NCBI GenBank assembly: GCA_945860955.1
Contig: CAMATH010000048.1
Span: forward strand, 1 to 56,847
Reading direction: 5' to 3'
Source of the DNA: Planctomicrobium piriforme
Lineage (GTDB): Bacteria; Planctomycetota; Planctomycetia; Planctomycetales; Planctomycetaceae
Length of the DNA: 56,847 nt
Each line of letters begins with the position of its first letter. Position 1 is the stretch's first letter. The notes under the pieces were generated by a model. It did no database searches, was not told the DNA's origin, and saw only the letters and a list, made by a program, of their open reading frames with translations. This document shows, in pieces, positions 30,847 through 32,738 of the stretch. The position numbers and the translations under genes were made by a program.

Positions 30847-30920
30847 TTTTCAAGCGTCCGGAGGCCGGTTCGATACCAGCGTGATTCCTCGAACCCGTCG
30901 TTCCTTCGCAAGCGCTCGCG

Positions 30921-30955
30921 CAGGGCGGTCCAATTTGGGCCGCCCTGTTTTTTTT
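30921..30955 (+). terminator. Rho-independent terminator after rplI
   Basis: CAGGGCGGTCC (30921-30931), loop AATTT, GGGCCGCCCTG (30937-30947, one G-U pair), then eight T. Confidence 0.9.
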
Positions 30956-31133: not shown

Positions 31134-31613
31134 GTGGCCGACTTCATCCAAAACCGACTCAAGGGATACAGCGACCGTTCGGGGCAACCGTTCGGGGACG
31201 ATCCTGCCAAGCGTCGGTCCGGGTCAGAGCCAGAGCTTCCCAGTGATTTCGGCAGGAACGGTGGGGACGGTGATTCGGACGACGGCGGTGAGGGGGGGGA
31301 CTCGAAAGGCCCAGACGACGGTCCGCAATCGAAAGAGACCAAGGAGTGGGACGCGGCACCGACCGAGGAGTTTCCCTACGTGAAAATCCCCAGCGTCGAA
31401 GCGCGCTGTGACGGGATTCTGGCATTTGTCGAACTCGATGCCCCACCCGCCTCCCGCCCGTCAGACTGGTCGACGCTGTCGGGAGAAATCCGCCGGGTGG
31501 TCAAGTCGATTCAAGACTGGTACCGGGCACACAAGTCGATCACAGTCTTTCAGGACTCGACTCTCGCGACAATCGAAATCCAGATTCAGGAGATCCGGGA
31601 ACTGGGGGGGTGA
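31134..31613 (+). CDS. Small acidic protein of unknown function
   Basis: 159 residues from a GTG at 31134 with GAGAGA a short distance upstream. Residues about 20-70 form an Asp/Gly/Ser/Glu-rich low-complexity segment (NGGDGDSDDGGEGGD); residues about 80-159 look folded and mixed alpha/beta (PYVKIPSVEARCDGILAFVEL, then IRRVVKSIQDWYRAHKSITV). No family was recognised. Codon use fits the neighbourhood and a frame this long with a coherent C-terminus supports a real gene. A TATGAT at 31087-31092 might be its -10 box, but no -35 was seen. Confidence 0.5.
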   Translation: MADFIQNRLKGYSDRSGQPFGDDPAKRRSGSEPELPSDFGRNGGDGDSDDGGEGGDSKGPDDGPQSKETKEWDAAPTEEFPYVKIPSVEARCDGILAFVELDAPPASRPSDWSTLSGEIRRVVKSIQDWYRAHKSITVFQDSTLATIEIQIQEIRELGG

Positions 31614-31773
31614 AACACACCCGTTTGTCTTTTGATTGTCCCACGGCTTGCGTCCTGACGCCGATAGTGTGCAATAGACACAGATTTCCCCCGCGTACAG
31701 ATTCAGCGGGCGGGAATCTTCGGAAGACTGACTGAAGAGCAAGCTGGTTACACCAGCCGGCTCGCTAGAACGT
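31614..31773 (+). ncRNA. Candidate structured RNA leader upstream of the PEP-CTERM gene
   Basis: No coding frame. Three stems precede a terminator: GTGT/ACAC around 31670-31684, a long hairpin pairing 31683-31694 with 31706-31716 (GATT-CCC-CCGC against GCGG-GGG-AATC with small bulges), and a clean two-part hairpin GAGC-AA-GCTGG (31737-31747), loop TTACA, CCAGC-CG-GCTC (31753-31763). With the terminator at 31774-31830 and the gene starting at 31860, the arrangement is that of an attenuator or riboswitch; an independent small RNA is the alternative. No known class was matched by eye. Confidence 0.4.
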
Positions 31774-31830
31774 AAACCGACGCAGCGGAATACTCCCCGA
31801 GTATTCCGCTGCGTCGGTTTTTTTTATTTT
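31774..31830 (+). terminator. Very strong Rho-independent terminator inside the leader
   Basis: A perfect 21-base-pair stem (31774-31794 with 31800-31820), loop CCCCG, then a T-rich tail TTTTTATTTT. It ends only 30 bases before the start codon of the ice-binding-like gene. Confidence 0.9.
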
Positions 31831-31859
31831 TTGATGTCCGCGACTTGAGGAGTTGAGCG

Positions 31860-32738
31860 ATGCGATGCCTGCCAGGGATTTGTTCGGTTTTCGCAGCAAT
31901 GACGCTGCTGACTTCACTCGCTCCTGCGGGACCGATTCTCGGTTCCGCCGGCAGCTTCGCGGTTCTCGGTGGCTCCACCATTACGAATACGGGTGCCACC
32001 ACGATTGATGGAAACGTGGGTCTTTCGCCAGGGTCGTCGATCACGGGATTCGGGTCCGTGACACTTGTGCCCCCGTCAGTCGTGCACAACACGGACGCCG
32101 TGGCATTGCAGGCGCAAATCGACAATACCGCGGCTTACAACGCGCTGGCGGGACTTGCTCGCACCGCGACCCTCACCGGGCAGAATCTCGGTGGGCTGAC
32201 GTTGGCACCCGGGATCTACTTTTTCGCCAGCTCCGCTCAACTGACGGGAACCCTGACGCTGGACGCCCAGGGGAACGACAACGCCTATTGGGTGTTTCAA
32301 ATTGGCAGCACGCTGACGACCGCCAGCGGCTCGGTAGTCACCATGATCAACACCGGGTCGAACAATGGCTCCGACAATGGCTTGTTTTGGCAGGTCGGAA
32401 GTTCGGCGACGCTGGGAACCAGTACCGACTTCGAAGGGAACATCCTGGCGCTCGCCAGTATCACCCTCAATACCAGCGCCACGATCCACAATGGCCGGGT
32501 GTTGGCGCAAACCGCCGCCGTGACGATGGATTCGAATACTGTCAGTATCCCGTCACCCTTCCCGAACATCGGGCCAGGGCTCAGTGGCGGCTTGGAATTC
32601 GACAGTCAGGGGCGTCTGGTCGAAGTCGTCTCCGGAAATCCGTTGCCGGTCGTTCCTGAACCGTCCACTCTGGTCCTGTCGGGTTGCGGGCTGGTGGGAC
32701 TGTGGAGCGTTCGAAGGCGAATTCGCCCTACGGTCTAA
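31860..32738 (+). CDS. Ice-binding-like (DUF3494) protein with PEP-CTERM tail
   Basis: 292 residues. Signal peptide at about 1-23 ([18 protein letters not shown]). Residues about 28-225 match the DUF3494 ice-binding-like beta-helix family: [52 protein letters not shown] and TFEGNILAL-like [15 protein letters not shown]. The C-terminus has the exosortase-type sorting signal: VPEPSTL at about 265, a hydrophobic helix, and RRRIRP. The protein should be processed at the cell envelope; no exosortase is in the window. AGGAG at 31848-31852 lies seven bases before the ATG. Many family members are adhesins rather than ice-binders, so the actual ligand is open. Confidence 0.9.

Follow-up and report, generated by a model that had tools for sequence, protein, structure and literature searches.

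The window examined here is a stretch of 56,847 nucleotides of Planctomicrobium piriforme DNA, and the question it raises is why a strong terminator should stand so close before a start codon. The gene-free stretch concerned (31614-31859) lies between a 159-amino-acid open reading frame (31134-31613), for which a Pfam search at E<=0.1 returned no match, and a DUF3494 gene with its ATG at 31860. As the original prediction had it, this gene (31860-32738) encodes an ice-binding-like PEP-CTERM protein, its product matching Ice_binding (PF11999, 3e-58) and the PEP-CTERM motif (PF07589, 2.9e-5), and the AGGAG ascribed to its start codon is present within GAGGAG at 31847-31852. The several hairpins noticed in the stretch are real: its fold of -102.9 kcal/mol compares with -70.6 +/- 4.8 kcal/mol for 200 dinucleotide shuffles, none of which was as good (z -6.7), and hairpins lie at 31682-31719, 31737-31763 and 31774-31820. 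The last of these is the terminator, a strong and perfect hairpin followed by a U-run, although with 22 uninterrupted base pairs, around a 3-nt loop, and not the 21 first counted. Its nearness to the gene also stands, the earlier figure of 30 bases being close to the distance to the ATG, which is 39 nt measured from the stem and ~27 nt measured from where the T-rich run stops. A separate strong terminator is found at 30920-30948, after the ribosomal protein L9 gene, so that this operon already ends ahead of the leader. The features of the leader, with the antiterminator strands as predicted, are as follows.

31648-31653, plus strand: -35-like TTGCGT, where the family promoter motif CCTTGCTTTTCC-N10-tG.TAtAAT fits best; a weak match
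31670-31675, plus strand: -10-like TGCAAT of the family promoter motif, at spacer 16, with a predicted start near 31682
31682-31719, plus strand: 5' hairpin, from the predicted fold of 31681-31788; it differs among copies and is seemingly missing from some short leaders
31721-31729, plus strand: conserved CGGANGACU box, the putative antiterminator 5' strand, from alignment and fold
31737-31763, plus strand: inner hairpin GAGC-AA-GCUGGU...ACCAGC-CG-GCUC, from the covariation of helices 2 and 3 across the family
31772-31780, plus strand: switch segment GUAAACCGA, the putative antiterminator 3' strand, from mutually exclusive pairings and the conserved CCG
31774-31820, plus strand: intrinsic terminator of 22 bp with a 3-nt loop and a T-rich run to ~31832, read directly and from the fold and family covariation
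31847-31852, plus strand: Shine-Dalgarno-like GAGGAG, read directly
31860-32738, plus strand: the gene proposed as controlled, DUF3494 ice-binding-like with a PEP-CTERM motif (PF11999, PF07589)

Our answer is that the leader probably belongs to a family of cis-acting transcription attenuators of the Planctomycetota that is switched by a putative effector. A DNA search of 59 genomes, the window's own included, showed that a sister species (G002) has the same leader, 81% identical, before its DUF3494 gene, and that weaker copies exist at sites lacking such a gene. A first covariance model (R1), built from seven copies in which 16 of 34 pairs showed compensatory change, matched 37 of 149 genomes, again including the window's own, at E<=0.01; the best match was at E<=2e-9 in 26 of the 149. 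Raw R1 match counts contain antisense shadows, and copy numbers are given as non-overlapping places: 12 among the matches listed for the window's own genome, and at least 19 in genome G059. Scanning named genomes with a DNA pattern yielded at least 118 stretches; Planctomycetota titles are attached to 78 of the 80 listed and no taxon to the other two, and the taxa among the listed matches are Planctomycetaceae, Pirellulaceae, Phycisphaerae, Isosphaeraceae, Schlesneria and metagenome-assembled genomes labelled Kuenenia. An even sample of the phylum, under stricter filters, gave matches at E<=0.001 in 24 of 392 genomes, of which 14 reached E<=1e-8. The family is widespread yet patchy in the Planctomycetota. 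It is patchy even in the window's genus, where G001 has no match and G003 a single one at 7.8e-5, a distribution that counts against the attenuator reading.

The non-redundant set comprises 193 copies, left after near-identical ones were removed from 196. Manual curation took out antisense shadows of the palindromic terminator, weak matches and places fetched twice, and brought 170 matches down to 96; a second collection of 169 matches was reduced to 100 by dropping truncated matches and records already in the set. Among relatives, six further DUF3494 loci (L025, L026, L027, L028, L029 and L031) have no element at E<=0.01, L027 being short upstream, and the DUF3494 locus of G002 carries the element in the same test.

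The copies share the CGGANGACU box, an irregular hairpin, AGUAAGCCGACG and the terminator, with a consensus of CGGANGACU ... URAA-GAGC-AR-CCCGG...CCGGG-RG-GCUC-GUUR ... AGUAAGCCGACG, followed by the upper terminator stem, where differences in sequence between copies are compensated. The original prediction had proposed a covariation search on homologous leaders, and the result is a conserved structure with strong covariation. Among 134 aligned copies, standard pairs occupy 91.6% of cells, and two-sided changes occur in 29 of the 34 modelled pairs, in each of the 11 pairs modelled for helices 2 and 3, and in 16 of the 20 of the terminator. None of 500 shuffles reached any of five covariation measures, and sliding the structure brought the paired cells down to 30.5-43.2%. 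Columns 15-17, which lie outside the model, pair with columns 88-86, with 20, 11 and 6 two-sided cells, respectively; an extension of the antiterminator into the bases just upstream of CGG was also tried, and no covarying pairs were found there. At the terminator base, C100, C101 and G102 are kept in 133, 134 and 134 of 134 rows, a near-invariance that, judged from the alignment, is beyond what a terminator alone requires. There are also conserved non-canonical positions, namely A4, G7 and the A.G oppositions at columns 18/85 and 23/79.

A point against the attenuator reading is that 101 of the 134 aligned rows are loci found by a DNA pattern that fixes the boxes, and the count was therefore repeated on the remaining 33 rows, which include the window and L034, both used in model building. 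In these rows pairs 10-94 and 15-88 covary, with 5 and 9 two-sided cells and 0 of 500 shuffles as good, and CGG/CCG is 91-100% paired.

The CGG of the 5' box is predicted to be able to pair with a CCG in the terminator's 5' arm, giving a long irregular hairpin, and since this CCG is part of that arm the two folds are mutually exclusive. For the window copy, the predicted pairing joins the CGG of the box to 31777-31779 and its AC to 31772-31773, and the switch segment from 31774 to 31780, which is all of it except the first two bases, is also the base of the terminator's 5' arm. In the alignment, CGG/CCG is paired in 98.8% of cells and ACU/AGU in 97.5%. A parsable switch segment is missing from 18 of the 193 copies, and the folding of transcripts truncated before the terminator's 3' arm used 171; their mean pairing probability is 0.94 for CGG/CCG and 0.87 for ACU/AGU, and 80 copies from non-pattern loci give 0.90 and 0.80. 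Once the 3' arm is included, the window copy is predicted to fold into the terminator, and the family medians are -34.6 kcal/mol for the terminator versus -23.9 kcal/mol for the antiterminator. The alignment has zero two-sided changes in CGG/CCG, so this pairing rests on near-invariance and folding. Such invariance would be expected when one CCG has two partners, a compensating triple change being improbable, although a protein or DNA site would give the same invariance. Also against the attenuator reading, the window copy is missing one ACU/AGU pair and has a weak promoter match.

That promoter motif, TTGC...TATAAT, lies ~60 nt upstream of the element, the median distance from the family's -10 to CGG being 61 nt. 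Of 70 strong -10 matches, 44 have a TTG at spacer 16 or 17, which none of the 9 in a control stretch has. Promoter matches scoring at least 14 bits number 92, and 77 of these precede an element, against an expectation of 0.7; the matrix was trained on the same copies as those tested. The match in the window scores 6.7 bits versus a family median of 11.8; the G002 copy has TATAAT at a spacing equal to that of the window's TGCAAT. A transcript start downstream of the terminator had been named as the finding that would speak against an attenuator, and the motif, found upstream of the leader instead, suggests a start ahead of the whole structure. Structure is on average stronger in the 50 nt that lead up to CGG (mean z -1.06) than in two control stretches (-0.26 and -0.07), and because the -10 of some copies lies just 17-25 nt upstream of CGG, the 5' hairpin seems optional. 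Strong matches to the motif are also present away from any recorded element (L103:7944-, L101:2038+ and L077:1088+), and these may mark further genes of the regulon without an attenuator.

Two rather different explanations of the leader depend on how the elements are placed beside genes. According to one, the elements would be stand-alone small RNAs that act in trans and merely sit beside stress genes, a view that the copy number in each genome suits, as does the presence of a promoter motif and a strong terminator, which would give a discrete RNA of ~120-170 nt. Orientation, however, is not independent of the neighbouring gene. Placement was counted wherever a neighbouring gene was called, on the downstream side for 179 elements and on the upstream side for 165. 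The element and the next downstream gene share a strand in 171 of the 179, against 273 of 558 in element-free gaps, and in 128 of 129 where the gene is within 300 nt; upstream, the strand is shared in 77 of the 165. Several called starts come 19-40 nt after the element, and pairs of elements are tandem (7) or divergent (12) and never convergent (0), which also speaks against RNAs acting in trans. We dropped a free small RNA family on these strand statistics and regard it as quite improbable, although a released leader could act in trans as a by-product of attenuation.

According to the other explanation, which we consider very improbable indeed, the leader would be the upstream gene's terminator and nothing more, or else a MITE-like repeat that has spread with no regulatory role. 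The copies are numerous and patchy, the open reading frame at 31134-31613 is co-directional with the leader, and 43 of 69 upstream genes within 300 nt share its direction, which is not quite random and also counts against the attenuator reading; the overall upstream count is at odds with this, as are the promoter motif upstream and the covarying hairpins that are not part of the terminator. In G002, moreover, the leader is found only at the DUF3494 gene, on a contig other than that of the 159-amino-acid open reading frame, and the sequence past the stop codon of that frame differs. There the leader remains next to the DUF3494 gene and the genes that follow, these genes being compared by eye, and it therefore travels with the downstream gene. 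Comparison of positions 31613-31626 of the window with L034 and L035 points to a likely rearrangement or insertion breakpoint between the two congeneric species. The sister-species gene (G002:C935:4098-4958) has one in-frame TAA, and may therefore be a pseudogene or contain an assembly error.

The neighbours were taken from an ad hoc codon-usage gene caller, which misses small open reading frames, such as a BON-like one in L059, and some distances are therefore overlong. L059 belongs to genome G098, which has two element places; there the leader comes before that small frame, an MpsC gene and another short frame, the two small ones being BON-like and hydrophobic in our reading. For 51 of 171 genes the called start is no more than 60 nt beyond the element's end, which leaves little space for a second promoter. 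Tandem copies 9-17 nt apart on one strand are seen at L072:3260-3484, L134:1318-1544, L121:6193-6423 and L181:7204-7428, an arrangement that resembles the logic of tandem riboswitches. Divergent pairs serve two genes from one intergenic region at L098, L105, L071 and L075. By sequence comparison, then, a family, its placement in cis, covarying hairpins and a promoter motif are established.

From this comparison we infer the transcription start, the switching, its polarity and the effector of the attenuator. Transcription would begin at the common sigma70-like promoter ~60 nt upstream of the CGG box, and the nascent leader would fold the antiterminator first, pairing CGG with CCG and, beyond a 3x3 internal loop (A-N-G/A-A-R), ACU with AGU, and continuing through a short URA/UUR helix and an A.G mismatch into the inner hairpin. 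By default the more stable terminator would prevail and the gene would be off. Under stress, an effector, whether protein or small molecule, would hold the antiterminator and let RNA polymerase read through. With many copies per genome, such a step would switch a stress regulon jointly, to which the window copy would add an ice-binding-like gene.

The regulon can be described from 124 downstream proteins, the 149 references minus 25 that are mostly long or truncated; omitting these underrepresents large PAS/CheB-like hybrid kinases, and the window protein was lengthened to the first ATG. Among the best 25 of 118 families are MpsC/DUF2294 (24 proteins), BON (6), response regulators (5) and KaiC (4), and the 124 also include three each of E1-E2 ATPase, CsrA, CsbD and Transgly_assoc, and two each of catalase, Ice_binding and MCRA, which we take to be the oleate hydratase family. 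Genes of the BON/OsmY type are thus represented downstream, and from the gene names we read the set as a stress regulon. A single-linkage cluster of proteins near elements spans 25 of 62 loci, and we read this recurrent cluster as hybrid sensor kinases with CheB-like starts. A leader specific to DUF3494 genes was dropped as a candidate, given the copies at loci without such a gene and the 2 of 124 downstream proteins with Ice_binding. The original prediction of an attenuator before an ice-binding-like PEP-CTERM gene is therefore supported by the sequence comparison as far as the attenuator goes, and fails in any specificity for such genes. Its other label, riboswitch, in the sense of a small-molecule sensor, is unproven because a protein effector fits equally.

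A protein effector would be an RNA-binding antiterminator in the style of BglG/LicT, proteins that act on RAT hairpins, in which an internal-loop hairpin overlaps the 5' arm of a terminator. The predicted antiterminator has this layout by analogy, and CsrA genes are among the targets (3 of 124), so that a protein is a tentative possibility to which we give somewhat less than an even chance. Every one of the 149 genomes has CsrA itself, with between 2 and 17 matches, seemingly many copies, so that it does not separate element-bearing from element-free genomes, and the consensus has one conserved GGA box. MpsC is found in 23 of the 26 genomes with a best E<=2e-9 versus 17 of the 123 others, but MpsC is a target gene and this co-occurrence therefore does not name the effector. 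The families profiled (MpsC and CsrA) offered no candidate for such a protein.

A small-molecule effector of the same attenuator, such as an alarmone or second messenger, would make the leader a new riboswitch class. Global second-messenger riboswitches precede many unrelated genes in a genome, as the leader does with its many unrelated stress genes, and a compact irregular hairpin with conserved non-canonical positions is consistent with ligand binding. On the other side, no ligand-linked enzyme or transporter dominates among the best 25 of 118 downstream families, and one irregular hairpin is in our judgement small for an aptamer; we give a small molecule a slightly lower chance than a protein. 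It is a little less likely still, and on balance unlikely, that a single stress second messenger frees the whole general-stress regulon through a new Planctomycetota riboswitch class; were it so, RNA would fill the role that a general-stress sigma factor has elsewhere. Under the attenuator reading with either effector, the leader copies, the shared promoter motif and a terminator to be overcome point to a global control step at the level of RNA, which would cover MpsC, BON/OsmY, KaiC, CsbD, catalase and ice-binding genes. To our knowledge, little is known about the control of stress genes in the Planctomycetota, and the analysis yields a covariance model, listed target genes and a basis for an effector search.

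That no known class fits, as had been judged by eye, agrees with the Rfam 15 scans: at the gathering threshold the window gave one match, a tRNA elsewhere, and 12 further loci gave none, while permissive scans of three copies gave sub-threshold matches only, mostly to miRNA models, and to some sRNA models, over the terminator stem. Terminator/antiterminator attenuators as such are well known from the BglG/LicT-RAT systems, the T-box and riboswitch expression platforms, and like these the leader would have two exclusive folds and one intrinsic terminator before the gene. It is unlike BglG/LicT-RAT and the T-box in preceding stress-type genes and not sugar-PTS or tRNA-related ones, and in being found in Planctomycetota in the scans made. 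GEMM (cyclic-di-GMP) riboswitches occur in many copies per genome before unrelated genes, tandem copies included. The leader resembles them in all three respects and differs in having no Rfam match. A literature search, in the titles and abstract openings ranked highest, returned no such planctomycete leader, many subscription papers being outside its scope. Although attenuators are known, there seems to be no earlier description of this leader family, of the genes it precedes or of how it is distributed across the phylum.

A term search of the main text of PMC11109978 found no planctomycete term. The Rhodopirellula-1 candidate motif of Weinberg et al. (2010) is given, in its table row, as from Planctomycetes and Proteobacteria, with 'y' for cis-regulatory and '?' for RNA, and with no Rfam accession (PMC2864571). 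Its listing in Planctomycetes and its cis-regulatory mark are in line with the leader, which is probably cis-regulatory; its listing in Proteobacteria differs from the titles among the pattern matches listed for the leader, and the leader family could be related to it or even identical.

The DNA pattern also had three matches in IMG/VR. Two of them overlap open reading frames on contigs judged phage-like and are probably due to chance. The third, on a contig classed as viral (L229, 2873-2934, minus strand), is an element before an MpsC-like open reading frame, perhaps in planctomycete DNA beside a prophage.
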